From contig JANXAS010000036.1 in NCBI GenBank assembly GCA_025062195.1, forward strand, positions 1 through 33,195: a DNA stretch of 33,195 nucleotides, read 5' to 3'. Position numbers and translations under genes: made by a program. Shown here piece by piece: positions 1 through 30,262 of the stretch. The first letter of the stretch is position 1. The number at the start of each line of letters is the position of its first letter. The notes beneath the pieces were generated by a model that saw only the letters and a list, made by a program, of their open reading frames with translations, made no database searches and had not been told where the DNA came from. This stretch comes from Armatimonadota bacterium (lineage in GTDB: Bacteria; Armatimonadota; Fervidibacteria; Fervidibacterales; Thermosaccharophagaceae).

Positions 1-984
1 AGGGTGAGCGGGAGAGTGGGCAGGGAGAACAGCGCTCTTATTGGCGCTGTAATTTATCTGGCTTCTGCGTCCCTAATTCCCATTGCATACCACACTCACA
101 GCATAGCACTCCTCCTAATCCTCTCGGCGATCGCTGGAATTGCAATTGGCTTTTATTGGCCAGCTGTCCAGGCGCTTATGGGAACAGCAGCACCAAGAGA
201 AAAGTTGCTCACATTCATCACCATCTATAACTTGGCTTGGAGCGCGGGCAGGATGCTCGGAATGAGACTCTCTGGAAACTTGTTCATGCACTCCCCTAAC
301 ATGCCTTTCATTGTGGGCGGTGCAATCAGCCTGCTGGTGGTGCTTGCCACTTTGGCAGCGCGTGCATTTGAGGCGCAGAGGGATAGTGAGGCGGTTGACT
401 TTTCTCGGGTATTGGCTCGCTACAGCTCGGCTGAATTTAACAGTCTCGTTGTAGCTTCAGCTCAGCTTGGGAATCTGCTTCGCACACTCTCCGTCGGGAC
501 AGCTGTCGCTCTTTTCCCCAAATGGGCTTCATCGTTGCGTTTCAGCCCAGCTCAAGTTAGCGAGCTTGTCTTCCTTTTGCTTGTCGGTCATTTCCTTAGC
601 TTCATCGTTGCGCCAGCACTTTACGCATGGATAAGCCCAAAGATGCTCGTCATAATCAAGATAGCTATTTCCTGCGGTTCTATCCTGATCTCCTTGAGCA
701 ATGCCGCATGGCAATTCTTCCTCTCGTTCCTTCTCGTTGGCGTTTGCGCCGGATTAGCGTGCACAACGAGCACATACTACTCAATCCTCTCGCAAGGCAG
801 AACAACAAGTGGCAGCGCACGCCATGAGGCAAGCGTCGGTGCCGGATCTGTCCTCGGTCCCATACTCGGTGGGTTTATAGCGCAAGTTACAGCATCACAG
901 CGCTCACCATACATGCTTATGGCGTTCATCGGGCTATGCCTGCTAGCGCTTGACATTGTATATCTCCTGAGGCGCAGGAATTAG
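1..984 (+). CDS. MFS-type transporter, 5'-truncated
   Basis: This is a polytopic membrane protein of the major facilitator type. The reading frame is open to the first base of the window, and the first in-frame GTG (base 4) has no room for a ribosome binding site, so the true start lies upstream. The visible 326 residues carry about nine or ten hydrophobic segments. A full MFS protein has 12 segments and about 400 residues, so roughly the first two segments are missing. Features fitting the family are a helix with Gly-rich FYWP near residues 49-53, an R-x-x-G-M-R stretch near 82-87 at the end of a helix, and a basic C-terminus. Substrate cannot be predicted. It is followed by a 124-base gap and a receiver-domain gene on the same strand. 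Confidence 0.75.
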   Translation, partial: RVSGRVGRENSALIGAVIYLASASLIPIAYHTHSIALLLILSAIAGIAIGFYWPAVQALMGTAAPREKLLTFITIYNLAWSAGRMLGMRLSGNLFMHSPNMPFIVGGAISLLVVLATLAARAFEAQRDSEAVDFSRVLARYSSAEFNSLVVASAQLGNLLRTLSVGTAVALFPKWASSLRFSPAQVSELVFLLLVGHFLSFIVAPALYAWISPKMLVIIKIAISCGSILISLSNAAWQFFLSFLLVGVCAGLACTTSTYYSILSQGRTTSGSARHEASVGAGSVLGPILGGFIAQVTASQRSPYMLMAFIGLCLLALDIVYLLRRRN

Positions 985-21079: not shown

Positions 21080-21760
21080 CTACTCCCACTCAATGACCCT
21101 GATGAAACTGAGACGCTGAAGCACTCTCGCAACTTCGTATGGCGTCACTTGAGCCGGCAAGTTAGCTGCTATTCTAGCAACTCTTTCGGTGCCATCAGTT
21201 GATGCTGTGAATTCAATCCTTGTTATATGGGCTTTTAGGGCGGTCAGCGATTGCAATATCTCATCAATGGCAAATGGATGCGGCTCGTATGTGCAGCGCA
21301 TAACTACAGGATATCTTTCACCCTTCCCGAACCATTTTCTCTCGGCAAGCCTCAACAGCGTTAATGAGGCAAAGGTGAGCAGAGTTGAGATCACTGCCGG
21401 GAAATACCAACCCATACCAACACACAGCCCAATCGCTGCGGTAGCCCATATGCTTGCAGCCGTAGTCAAGCCACGAATAACATCGCCACGAAGCCATATT
21501 GTGCCAGCTCCGAGGAAGCCGATCCCTGTAACGACATTTGCAGCTATTCGTGCCGGGTCTGCCCCCGGATTGCCAGACTGGACTGCAATTGCAATTGAGA
21601 CCATCATAAATAGGCACGAACCAAGCCCAACGAGAACATGTGTCCTCAAACCTGCCGGTCTTTCCCTCGCTTCCCTTTCAGCACCTATCAAAGCGCATAG
21701 AGCGATAGTCAACGCGAGGCGAAGAACGGTCTCGCCAACAGTTGGTTCTGTAAGGTGCAC
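21080..21760 (-). CDS. MgtC/SapB family membrane protein
   Basis: The 226-residue protein has the MgtC/SapB layout: an N-terminal membrane domain of four or five helices and a C-terminal soluble ACT-like domain of about 80 residues. Family motifs are IGAEREARERPAGLRTH near residue 27, GIGFLGAGTIW near 80 and RGLTTAASIWATAAIGL near 97. MgtC proteins are linked to survival in low magnesium and to ATPase regulation, while many other members have unknown roles. The GTG at 21760 is chosen because GGGAGGTG lies 9 bases upstream; the TTG at 21781 precedes that site. It is 66 bases after proS on the same strand and may be the last gene of the long cluster. Confidence 0.92.
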   Translation of the reverse strand: MHLTEPTVGETVLRLALTIALCALIGAEREARERPAGLRTHVLVGLGSCLFMMVSIAIAVQSGNPGADPARIAANVVTGIGFLGAGTIWLRGDVIRGLTTAASIWATAAIGLCVGMGWYFPAVISTLLTFASLTLLRLAERKWFGKGERYPVVMRCTYEPHPFAIDEILQSLTALKAHITRIEFTASTDGTERVARIAANLPAQVTPYEVARVLQRLSFIRVIEWE

Positions 21761-21769
21761 AAACAAAGG

Positions 21770-21777
21770 CACCTCCC
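21770..21777 (-). promoter_or_regulatory. ribosome binding site that selects a GTG start for the MgtC-like protein
   Basis: GGGAGGTG on the minus strand, with a 9-base spacer, points to the GTG at 21760 and away from the longer TTG-initiated frame at 21781. Confidence 0.7.
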
Positions 21778-21826
21778 TCAATTAGCCTGCCATATATCCT
21801 TTTGGCGGCTCGCTGACAGGGGGCTT

Positions 21827-23627: not shown

Positions 23628-24944
23628 TTACCATGCTCCAGTGATCCGTCTGAGTATGTATCCAATGTCCCTTGCGCTTATGAGCAGTGTTAACCCGAGC
23701 AGAAAAGCGATACCTATGAGTGTCATGTTTAACTCCCATTTTGGGTTTATGCGCTGCCCTGATAAAGCCTCGGCAAACAAAAGTGCTAACCTTCCGCCGT
23801 CAAGTGGCAGTATCGGAATGATCAGATTGAGCAACCCAACTATGTAACTCAGCATTCCGATTAAGCGCAATTGCAGAAAGAAACTCATCCACGCCTGTTC
23901 TTTTAACTCCCAGAATATGCGTATCGGACCGCCGACAGCGTGATGAAGCTCTGCCAGCCTTGCAAATAGCATTGCGATCCCGTAAGTGATGCGAATGCAC
24001 TCGCCCGCCGCGATTACTGCCCCATCTAATATGCGTTTCATTAGCGGCACTGGTTTATCAGAGGGAACTTGAAGGAATTCAACCCCGATTATGCCGCGCT
24101 TTCTCTTTACAACCTTTGTCTCGGATATTGCTTGTGCTCCTTCTCTTCCCCCCTTGCGCTCAACCTCCTTTATCTCAACTTCCTCAACTGCTGTGGGAAC
24201 AACGCTCAAGGTGATCGGTTTGCCTTCCCGCAACACCGTAAAAGTGATTCGCTTTGCCGGGCTTTCAGATATTGCTCCAATGAGTATGTCAACATCATTC
24301 CTACCAATGCCGTTTATGGAAAGAAGCACATCGCTGTGGCGCAGCGCTTTCGCCATGCATTCAATCTCCTTCCCCCCTCGCAGCACCCTGAATCTGACAT
24401 TGCTGCTGCGCTTGCCCCCGATGCCCTTTGCGAGCCTGAGCCATTCATCTGTCAGCTTAATACTCAATCCGTTTACACCGACGATTCTGTCGCCGGGTTT
24501 GATCCCCGCTTTTGCAGCTGGCATATTTGTAGCCACTCTTGCAACAACATTGGTGCTCCTTAAACCGCTCATTGCCATGCCATAAATGAACAGCAGTGCA
24601 AATGCTGTGATGAGGTTAGCAAGCGAACCGGAAAGGAGCACAACCATCCTGTGCTTGACCGGGCGATTGTGGAAAGCCTCGGGTGAAGCTAACACGCTTG
24701 GCTCGTCAAGCTCCATACCGAATATGCGCACATATCCGCCGAACGGGATGGCGCGAATGGAATATCTTATTCCACCGATAAGCCTCGTCCAAATTACCGG
24801 ACCAAGGAAGATAGAAAATTCAATCACCCTCATCCTGACCTTCAACGCTGCAAAGAAGTGCGCAGCTTCGTGAACGAGCACAACAAACCCAAGGACAAGT
24901 ATCGGTATAAGGAAAGACTTCAGCAGCGGTAACAAGCTATCCAT
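23628..24944 (-). CDS. rseP: site-2 protease RseP (RIP zinc metalloprotease)
   Basis: RseP cleaves transmembrane substrates such as anti-sigma factors and signal-peptide remnants within the membrane. The 438 residues contain the zinc site VHEAAHFF near residue 25, two tandem PDZ domains (about 135-290; GIKPGDRIVGVNG is the first carboxylate-binding loop), and the third zinc ligand in NLIIPILPLDGGR near residue 385 ahead of the last helices. Length and order match the family. GAGGTGA lies before the ATG. The gene is in its conserved place upstream of proS, but the dxr gene often found just before it is missing; a 234-base noncoding gap with paired hairpins is there instead. Confidence 0.96.
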   Translation of the reverse strand: MDSLLPLLKSFLIPILVLGFVVLVHEAAHFFAALKVRMRVIEFSIFLGPVIWTRLIGGIRYSIRAIPFGGYVRIFGMELDEPSVLASPEAFHNRPVKHRMVVLLSGSLANLITAFALLFIYGMAMSGLRSTNVVARVATNMPAAKAGIKPGDRIVGVNGLSIKLTDEWLRLAKGIGGKRSSNVRFRVLRGGKEIECMAKALRHSDVLLSINGIGRNDVDILIGAISESPAKRITFTVLREGKPITLSVVPTAVEEVEIKEVERKGGREGAQAISETKVVKRKRGIIGVEFLQVPSDKPVPLMKRILDGAVIAAGECIRITYGIAMLFARLAELHHAVGGPIRIFWELKEQAWMSFFLQLRLIGMLSYIVGLLNLIIPILPLDGGRLALLFAEALSGQRINPKWELNMTLIGIAFLLGLTLLISARDIGYILRRITGAW

Positions 24945-25178: not shown

Positions 25179-26057
25179 TCACAAAAGCTTTAAAAGCATT
25201 GCCGCTGATGCGCATACTCCGATAGCGAGGAAATGGCGCGCATAAAAGCCGATGCCTACTGACAAGATCTTTGGAACATTCTCTGGAACTTGCTCTATGC
25301 CCAACCCCGACAATAATCGCTGCTGCGCCATTACGCCGAATGTGACGAGCGCAAACAACTTTGCAGATTCCAACATGCTGTTTATTAGAATGCCGGCAAC
25401 TAACGCCGAAAACAACCCTCCAGCAATGGGGCTCAAAAATCTGTATCTTTGACTGCTTTGGCTGTTGGCTTCATCATCGGCTTTCAACAAGTTCGCTACG
25501 CTTACCCCACCGATCAGGGAAAGCAATGATAGTGCGCTCTCCTTCGGGGCAATCATTGTGACTGCCAACCCAAATGGTATACCAACAGTCAGCCCCACGA
25601 GAACGCTTGACGCTGTCCCAAGCACAACCATGATTGGCTTCCTTTGACTCCATGCATCAACAACGTATGAAACAATAGTGGCAGCTAAAACGAGTGCCCC
25701 CATCATCATGCCCATGCTCAAAGCTACAAGCGTCAATTCGTTCAGCCTCCATTGGATAGAACCGTAGACGGTGTTTTGACCGTGCGTTTGTATGAGTGTG
25801 GCGACGGCTTTATCAGTGCACCCGAAGTAAAATAGGGCACCAACTAAAATCAGCGAGATGCTCGTTGAGGATGATTCCGATGTATATGCGTTCCACTTCA
25901 CCCTGAACAGATGAGCAAGCTCCCACGATATAGCATATGCGAGGAAAAGGCAAAGAAGCGCTGTAGGTATCCCAAACATTGAGAATTTAATGTCGGCAGC
26001 CACAAGCGCGAATGATATAGCAGATAGCAGCTTACTTAGCTGTGTCCTTTGCATCAA
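25179..26057 (-). CDS. polytopic membrane protein in the cdsA position, lacking the CdsA signature
   Basis: The 292-residue protein has about eight hydrophobic segments and overlaps the end of uppS by 26 bases, the place normally held by cdsA (CDP-diacylglycerol synthase). The overall size and helix number fit CdsA. However, the family signature (a K-D-x-G...HGG-x-x-DR-x-D type sequence near the C-terminus) and the preceding D-T-x-A-Y...SPxKTxEG segment are absent; the corresponding area reads YRFLSPIAGGLFSAL without the acidic and basic residues. It may be a highly diverged or non-catalytic CdsA relative, or an unrelated membrane protein that replaced it. A working CdsA would then be encoded elsewhere. 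Confidence 0.6.
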   Translation of the reverse strand: MMQRTQLSKLLSAISFALVAADIKFSMFGIPTALLCLFLAYAISWELAHLFRVKWNAYTSESSSTSISLILVGALFYFGCTDKAVATLIQTHGQNTVYGSIQWRLNELTLVALSMGMMMGALVLAATIVSYVVDAWSQRKPIMVVLGTASSVLVGLTVGIPFGLAVTMIAPKESALSLLSLIGGVSVANLLKADDEANSQSSQRYRFLSPIAGGLFSALVAGILINSMLESAKLFALVTFGVMAQQRLLSGLGIEQVPENVPKILSVGIGFYARHFLAIGVCASAAMLLKLL

Positions 26058-26859
26058 TTGGAACTACACCTCCAAAACGCCTTTCACGCGCCTGATAGGA
26101 AAGTATGGCTATGTAAAGGTGCTTCCTTGTGAAGTCCGGCCAGTAAATTGGGGCAATGAAGAATTCGGTATAGGCAAGCTGCCAGAGCAGGAAGTTGCTT
26201 ATTCTTTGTTCACCAGCTGTGCGGATTAACAGGTCTGGGTCTGGCAAACTGTTTGTGAACAGGTAGCTTTGGAAAGTCACCTCATCAATAGCATCAGGTT
26301 TGGTCTTACCCTCAATAGCATCCTTTACCAGTCGCCTTACCGCACTTAATATCTCCTGCCTCCCACCGTAATTTATGGCGAGGTTTAAAATCATTCGTTT
26401 GTTATCACGGGTGAGTGCAACCGTATCGTCAAGTTCCCTCAAAAGTGAACTTGGCAACCTGTCTCTTAGACCGATGTGTCGTATCTGAATACCATTGCGG
26501 TGCAATTCGTATTTCTCTCTGCGCAGCGTCATTTCAATTAAGTGCATCAATCCCTTCACTTCCGGCGCCGGGCGCTGCCAATTCTCAGTTGAGAAAGCAT
26601 ACAGCGTGAGTATCGGGATACCAAGCTCAACACACGCCTCAACAACCTGTCTTGTGGCTCTTGCCCCAGCCCTATGCCCGTTTAGTATGGCTATATTCCT
26701 TTCCTTTGCCCAGCGCCTGTTGCCGTCCATTATGATGGCAATGTGCCTCGGCAACCTACTTCGGTCAATCAAATTGAGGCATTCTTCTTCGGTCAATCCC
26801 TCACACATGGTTATAAATTCAGCTGCGCACATCCGTGATATTTGGCTCTGCAGCTTCAT
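26032..26859 (-). CDS. uppS: isoprenyl (undecaprenyl) diphosphate synthase
   Basis: UppS is a cis-prenyltransferase that extends farnesyl diphosphate with isopentenyl diphosphate to make the lipid carrier for peptidoglycan. The 275 residues contain the diphosphate-binding MDGNRRWAKERN near residue 44, a TLYAFSTENWQRP segment near 86, a LNLAINYGGRQEI segment near 160, and DLLIRTAGEQRISNFLLWQ near 210. The ATG at 26859 follows GGGGGA; the frame also opens at a TTG at 26874. Its start lies inside the 3' end of the PASTA-like gene (41-base overlap), which suggests coupled translation. Confidence 0.96.
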   Translation of the reverse strand: MKLQSQISRMCAAEFITMCEGLTEEECLNLIDRSRLPRHIAIIMDGNRRWAKERNIAILNGHRAGARATRQVVEACVELGIPILTLYAFSTENWQRPAPEVKGLMHLIEMTLRREKYELHRNGIQIRHIGLRDRLPSSLLRELDDTVALTRDNKRMILNLAINYGGRQEILSAVRRLVKDAIEGKTKPDAIDEVTFQSYLFTNSLPDPDLLIRTAGEQRISNFLLWQLAYTEFFIAPIYWPDFTRKHLYIAILSYQARERRFGGVVPIDAKDTAK

Positions 26860-27112
26860 CCCTGTTTCCCCCAATTCGTCTGTATGGCTGAATGTATGCC
26901 TCTGTTGAGACGATGAGTTTTATTCTATTGCCTTCATCCCTTTGAGCTACCACACGAACGATATCGCTCTTATGAGGATGGCTTGGTGGCTCCGTCTGAA
27001 AAATTTCAATTCCTCTAACGCCAGCTCTGTGAAGCATTTCCAAAGCCTCTTCAACCTTAAGCCCAATCGTGTCTATTAGATTTCCATCTGTCAGCCGATA
27101 TCCGGCGCTCAT
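26819..27112 (-). CDS. small PASTA-like protein between frr and uppS
   Basis: This 97-residue gene has an ATG 11 bases after the frr stop, with GGAGGGG at the end of frr as the ribosome site. Residues 12-70 resemble a single PASTA-type fold: IDTIGLKVEEALEMLHRAG is the helix region, and IVRVVAQRDEGNRIKLIVS is the closing strand pair with the usual short turn. PASTA domains bind peptidoglycan or muropeptides when extracellular, but this protein has no signal peptide or membrane segment, so it would be cytoplasmic. Its 3' end overlaps the uppS start by 41 bases. The assignment is from pattern only and the function is unknown. Confidence 0.72.
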   Translation of the reverse strand: MSAGYRLTDGNLIDTIGLKVEEALEMLHRAGVRGIEIFQTEPPSHPHKSDIVRVVAQRDEGNRIKLIVSTEAYIQPYRRIGGNRDEAAEPNITDVRS

Positions 27113-27122
27113 TGTCGTAAGC

Positions 27123-27689
27123 CTACCCCTCCAATATCTCTTGCTCTTTTGCTTTTCGCAGCGCCTCAATTTCATCAATGTGCTTTGAGGTGATTTTGTC
27201 AAGCTCACTTCTCGCCCTTCTCACTTCATCCTCTGAGATGCTTTGCTCCTTTTCAAGCTTGCGCAATTCCTCAAGTATGTCCCTTCTAACATTCCTGACT
27301 GCTACCTTGCCCTCTTCAGCCCTCTTGTTCGTGAGCTTGACAAGCTCGTGTCTTCGTTCCTCTGTAAGCGGCGGTATCGGCACTTTAATGACATTTCCAT
27401 CGGTTGAAGGCGTAAGCCCTATATCGGAGCCCAGGATGGCTCTCTGTATTGAATCAATCAGGCTTTTATCCCAAGGGGCTATTATGAGCAGCCTCGGTTC
27501 TGGCGCAGTTATTGTTGCAAGCTGCTTTAGCTGATACATTGTTCCGTAATATTCAACCCGTATATGGTCAAGCAATGCCGGTGTTGCCCTCCCTGTGCGC
27601 AGCATCGCAAGGTTGCTTGCAGTTGCCTCAACGGCTTTCTTCATCCTTTGTTCGGCATCATTCAGCAGAGCCTTAATTGCCTCGTGCAT
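27123..27689 (-). CDS. frr: ribosome recycling factor
   Basis: RRF splits post-termination ribosomes together with EF-G. The 188 residues are of normal length and fully typical: NLAMLRTGRATPALLDHIRVEYYG near residue 28, LKQLATITAPEPRLLIIAPWD, GNVIKVPIPPLTEERRHELVKL near 105, and a long helical C-terminus with RNVRRDILEELRKLEKE and SEDEVRRARSEL. The ATG at 27689 follows GGGGTGGTGAAG; the frame extends to 27710 without a better start. It lies 102 bases after pyrH, its conserved partner. Confidence 0.97.
   Translation of the reverse strand: MHEAIKALLNDAEQRMKKAVEATASNLAMLRTGRATPALLDHIRVEYYGTMYQLKQLATITAPEPRLLIIAPWDKSLIDSIQRAILGSDIGLTPSTDGNVIKVPIPPLTEERRHELVKLTNKRAEEGKVAVRNVRRDILEELRKLEKEQSISEDEVRRARSELDKITSKHIDEIEALRKAKEQEILEG

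Positions 27690-29260: not shown

Positions 29261-30262
<1,002 letters not shown>

Follow-up and report, generated by a model that had tools for sequence, protein, structure and literature searches.

A putative catalytically dead CdsA relative in the cdsA slot beside uppS in Armatimonadota

The membrane protein encoded between uppS and rseP in a 33,195-nucleotide stretch of Armatimonadota DNA (the window) is probably a CdsA-derived, catalytically dead protein that is still under selection. The essential enzyme CdsA stands at the start of phospholipid synthesis in bacteria, and in most of them its gene lies beside the cell-wall lipid gene uppS. The gene studied here (X) would descend from cdsA and still sit in the uppS-cdsA-dxr-rseP slot. 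With the Asp pair for the catalytic metals and the PGHGG..DR.D loop gone, X would be unable to act as a CDP-diacylglycerol (CDP-DAG) synthase, and CDP-DAG would be supplied by a complete CdsA encoded elsewhere in the genome. Similar genes in the phylum suggest a dead enzyme that was given another job, and the slot family would form a pseudoenzyme branch of a known enzyme family, CdsA. In the open-access literature that we searched there was no report of a CdsA pseudoenzyme family, and pseudoenzymes and CDP-diacylglycerol came together only in a protist plastid case.

The slot gene in the window and across the phylum

A sequence-only reading of this DNA had placed X at the cdsA position, overlapping uppS and preceding rseP, with about eight membrane helices. 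The open reading frame and its position were confirmed (Table 1), and a Kyte-Doolittle scan identified eight hydrophobic segments. X starts at a TTG (26055-26057) or at an ATG one codon further on, which gives 291 residues, and it overlaps the end of uppS (26032) by 23-26 bases; 234 bases separate its stop from the rseP start (24944). The minus-strand order is rpsB-tsf-pyrH-frr-(129-aa ORF)-uppS-X-rseP-proS, in which rpsB, tsf, pyrH, frr and proS were named by reading their translations, and dxr, another common occupant of the slot, lies on contig C85 of the window genome. Within the window's order the slot proteins are 20-27% identical, a very fast divergence, and the order has a polar loop of its own (GKSD..A..I...GQ) and a C-terminal block, both conserved. 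The AlphaFold model of X from its single sequence was unusable (pLDDT 45.9).

Table 1. Features of the window discussed in the text
Feature	Coordinates	Strand	Remarks
Slot protein X	25179..26057	-	291/292 aa, ~8 helices; CdsA-derived pseudoenzyme (proposed)
N-terminal part of X, residues 1-156	25587..26054	-	aligned to CdsA 1-125 (order-only profile)
X residues 267-277, GIGFYARHFLA	25224..25256	-	opposite CdsA signature; Asp residues replaced (family alignment)
uppS, undecaprenyl diphosphate synthase	26032..26874	-	Pfam/NCBIfam matches
rseP, site-2 protease	23628..24944	-	Pfam/NCBIfam matches
129-aa ORF between frr and uppS	26819-27208	-	
S2-like ribosomal protein	29261-30262	-	rpsB by position
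Membrane protein, presumably MgtC/SapB-like	21080-21781	-	

We then compared 76 uppS neighbourhoods from 76 genomes, namely the window, 56 of the 60 other genomes of an even sample, and 19 more, among which G035 and G070 were included since an earlier profile search had matched them and the rest come mainly from unsampled families. A membrane-protein ORF lies between uppS and dxr or rseP in 18 of these loci (10 of the 56, 7 of the 19, and the window), and a true CdsA occupies the slot in two (G050 and G219). In 31 loci dxr or rseP comes next after uppS, <330 bases away and with no membrane ORF between them (L110 and L148 being counted from the second of two uppS matches), and in 25 no dxr, rseP, proS or cdsA was seen downstream of uppS within the stretch read. 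Three further slot-type genes lie outside the 18: in G003 at a contig start, adjoining the end of uppS; in G022 with dxr-rseP, on a different contig from uppS; and in G041 at a contig end. The same slot gene is found in G001, G002 and G003, which belong to the window's order, and in other families, with open frames of 250-310 codons; none was found in G004 of the window's order (63% complete). As a yardstick among titled records of various phyla, the 80 loci most similar to the window's UppS, which are not a random sample, carry CdsA beside uppS in 61 cases and not in 14, with five loci cut. The slot presents a graded series in one phylum: true CdsA, an eroded full-length protein, a truncated protein, and none.

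A search with alignment A1 also matched G059, G160 and G219 (E 4.6e-5 to 0.008); because the f6 member G022 was included in A1, the E-values for f6 lean on it. Another search gave the matches L008-L010 and L006 (G013); the last, which we take to be a TauE-type protein, lies in a different gene neighbourhood and was dropped.

Profile relationship to CdsA

Pfam and NCBIfam searches of X returned nothing above cut-off, and the CdsA family PF01148 (CTP_transf_1) was absent even at E<=10; the other slot proteins likewise gave no CdsA match above cut-off in these searches. The G226 slot protein reached E 0.011 against PF01148 over profile positions 2-144, below cut-off. In the PDB, neither the profile-to-sequence searches with A1 and A2 nor a sequence search with the G226 protein found a CdsA.

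Profile-profile comparison did pick out the slot family as relatives of CdsA. Twelve full-length slot proteins aligned to 21 CdsAs of the phylum with Prob 97.3 and E 2.1e-11 (reversed control 0.6), and the alignment is collinear, slot columns 3-276 running against CdsA 1-284. That 21-row CdsA alignment left out L191, L207, L212, L215 and L216, the first two of which were brought back in a profile of 83 CdsAs. Among families built from the membrane ORFs of the loci, the CdsA family (30 members used) scored 96.6 against thirteen slot proteins, and the sole other two with at least three members scored 0.1 and 0.1; alignment A2 scored 94.5 against four CdsAs. Among control membrane ORFs, 75 of 78 scored <=3.1, and the three higher ones (85.6, 51.9 and 45.4) are the slot genes of G042, G221 and G031, which afterwards joined the slot-protein set.

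In a broad test against the 83 CdsAs, with 40 block-shuffled nulls per group, six single groups exceeded all of their nulls (0/40 each): f37 (96.8), f23 (91.9), f16 (89.9), f36 (81.4), f20 (70.8) and f26 (69.0). The pooled set without f16 and f37 did so as well (94.0, 0/40), f29 scored 14.2 (1/40), and f6 alone 1.9 (15/40). The window's order alone scored 3.3, a value reached by 7/40 nulls, and is thus unrecognisable by itself against the broad CdsA profile. Against the 21 phylum CdsAs it gave Prob 51.4 over CdsA 1-125 (reversed 12.1). It is nevertheless linked to the other slot proteins, scoring 97.9 (E 4.7e-13, reversed 0.4) against f6+f23+f26+f29 and 68.5 (reversed 0.2) against f16+f37, while f6+f23+f26+f29 scored 96.0 against f16+f37. 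Whole-chain homology to CdsA is seen at the level of the slot family (Prob 97.3); the window's order reaches it via intermediates only. On these profiles a CdsA origin appears well supported for the slot family, with good support for the window protein through its intermediates, and X itself very likely descends from CdsA.

Catalytic residues, intact CdsA copies and the reduced form

According to the review PMC7018664, CdsA has one N-terminal helix, four middle (dimerisation) helices and four catalytic helices, carries the motif KDx5PGHGGx2DRxD, and in TmCdsA has the metal pair D219/D249, which we mapped by motif spacing to D232 and D262 in our numbering. Set against that layout, residues 1-156 of X align with the N-terminal helix and most of the middle domain. 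We aligned ten slot proteins singly to the profile of the 21 CdsAs; most of these alignments are weak, with Prob ranging from 0.07 to 97.8, and individual columns are accordingly tentative. The N-terminal Glu (E41) is kept in eight of the ten and is Asp in one, X being unaligned on its own. At D232 the six aligned proteins have His, Glu, Gln, Val, Val or Glu (two gapped, two unaligned), and at D262 eight have Gly, Ala, Tyr, Val, Val, Leu, Ala or Val (two unaligned). The catalytic Asp pair is hence missing from every slot protein aligned at that site, and the signature that contains it is replaced or unaligned, the loop of X reading GIGFYARHFLA. The absence of the CdsA Asp and HGG residues from X, already remarked on from its sequence, was confirmed. 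G008, G035, G070 and G018 still have the first Asp of DRxD, a pattern that reads as a graded loss. For resistant streptococci whose CdsA has lost its function, PMC7018664 reports an Asp-to-Asn change at the D219 equivalent. CDP-DAG synthesis is very unlikely once the metal pair is lost, and X is very probably inactive as a CDP-DAG synthase, judging from these substitutions.

The search for a second full cdsA in the window genome (G000; 3.42 Mb, 170 contigs, 97% complete) was successful: PF01148 matched in one place only, C96:1737-2552, at 190.9 bits, where the encoded CdsA (L001) carries the full signature, and it did not find X. With no family match carrying catalytic residues and a full CdsA elsewhere, neither of the two observations named beforehand as speaking against the sequence-only reading was made. 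This intact gene directly follows two genes that we take to be pdxS and pdxT, an order absent from the other CdsA loci examined. A CdsA elsewhere was found in 18 of the 21 slot-gene genomes, the window genome among them, counting that of G058 (its start only, cut by the contig end) and that of G039 (a partial match); none was found in the incomplete or highly fragmented assemblies of G003 (61% complete), G047 (1060 contigs) and G226 (710 contigs). Across the phylum, 58 of 61 genomes that are at least 90% complete have a CdsA at E<=0.01.

Two genomes carry a second CdsA copy away from uppS with an eroded signature, L215 in G070 (PGSSGVLDQFASL) and L216 in G227 (PGRGG). From these, extra CdsA copies seem to erode repeatedly in the phylum, and the two may represent a decay like that of the slot proteins at an earlier stage. 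In a CdsA tree that included L191, L207, L215 and L216 and omitted L212, the CdsAs of G000, G001, G004, G035 and G005 and the second copy of G070 grouped together at 99/90. The backbone of this tree is open, so that either the relocated CdsAs or the f27 slot CdsAs may be the older line, and X may be a duplication paralog or the original slot copy, pushed aside when another CdsA took over.

The most reduced slot proteins are those of f20 (six genomes), which have 153-154 residues and 4-5 hydrophobic segments, and which align to CdsA 4-146, its N-terminal and middle part (in four of the six genomes). Over 153 codons (Nei-Gojobori), dN/dS for the f20 slot gene is 0.14 for G026/G058 and 0.17 for G224/G039; for the same two pairs it is 0.20/0.20 for uppS, 0.16/0.21 for dxr and 0.17/0.17 for rseP. 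The G026/G042 slot genes gave 0.39, and synonymous sites were saturated in the other pairs tested, that of the window included. The slot genes do not look like debris: they have stayed open over deep divergence, and the f20 form is under purifying selection in two pairs.

Among known systems, CdsA itself (PF01148, e.g. TmCdsA) resembles the slot proteins in its place beside uppS/rseP, in the full-length collinear match at family level and in the retained N-terminal Glu, and differs in that X has no PF01148 match, has lost the signature and Asp pair, and coexists with a full CdsA. In PMC7018664, the E. coli paralog YnbB is likewise a second CdsA-like protein alongside CdsA, but it keeps the catalytic C-terminal half and has diverged elsewhere, whereas the slot proteins lose the catalytic half. 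The archaeal CDP-archaeol synthase CarS, described there as a five-helix CdsA relative missing one domain, retains catalysis and lacks the dimerisation domain, in contrast to the f20 proteins, which keep the dimerisation part and lack catalysis.

Possible roles and alternative readings

The sequence-only reading had offered two choices, a decayed CdsA paralog with a new role or a different membrane protein in the slot. Decay from a CdsA relative was supported by slot synteny, the slot-family profiles and the eroded motifs in relatives; the new role stays at the level of a proposal, selection having been measured in relatives. A takeover of the slot by an unrelated polytopic membrane protein, its CdsA likeness due to membrane composition bias, would fit the lack of a Pfam match for X and the non-significant scores of the window's order and f6 alone, but it is improbable given that the composition-matched reversed and block-shuffled nulls fall below the observed scores in six single groups and the pooled set, that the alignments run collinearly from end to end and finish at the eroded signature, and that the location is the cdsA slot. 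Very improbable is a pseudogene in the course of being lost: the fast divergence within the order and the absence of the gene from many genomes would agree with it, yet the frames stay open across families, the f20 dN/dS values are low and conserved blocks persist in the window's order.

The best-kept part of the slot proteins is the part through which CdsA forms dimers, and we therefore propose a non-catalytic membrane subunit as the most likely mechanism. Since CdsA dimerises via its middle domain and the slot protein retains that part, X could form a dimer, either with the active CdsA or with a second copy of itself, and in this way could adjust phospholipid synthesis or position it next to UppS, Dxr and RseP. 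That X acts by pairing with CdsA is a tentative suggestion, drawn from domain retention. The fuller version, in which the pseudoenzyme family joins the relocated CdsA as the regulatory subunit of a heterodimer, coupling phospholipid synthesis to the uppS-dxr-rseP operon and so to isoprenoid and undecaprenyl lipid supply, with one taxonomic family reduced to the dimerisation module, is rather unlikely as it stands. The nearest rival, also unlikely, is a CdsA-derived scaffold or regulator for UppS or RseP instead of CdsA. It would account for the overlap with uppS and for two arrangements that have rseP as their common neighbour, the G022 gene staying with dxr-rseP on a contig separate from that of uppS and the gene in the window's order staying with uppS and rseP, dxr being gone; neighbourhood alone is, however, no proof of contact, and many genomes in the phylum do without the gene. 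Members of the CTP transferase superfamily are diverse, and a CdsA-family enzyme with a changed active site acting on another lipid (e.g. in a CTP-dependent kinase-like role) might explain the conserved polar loop and C-terminal block of the window's order. We hold this to be decidedly improbable, as no slot protein aligned there has the metal-binding Asp pair and the six f20 genomes have no catalytic domain in the slot protein at all. To our knowledge, the balance of CdsA output against wall and envelope precursors is poorly understood; if the pseudoenzyme reading is true, a dead CdsA in the ancestral operon, together with a dimerisation-only version, would offer a natural handle on it.

Finally, we note three other features of the window. 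The 129-aa ORF between frr and uppS has weak PASTA-like and radical-SAM matches, below cut-off, and no relative of it was found beside uppS in the surveyed loci of the phylum. The S2-like ribosomal protein ends in about 40 mostly glutamate residues. A protein similar to the presumed MgtC/SapB-family membrane protein is found near rseP in L184.
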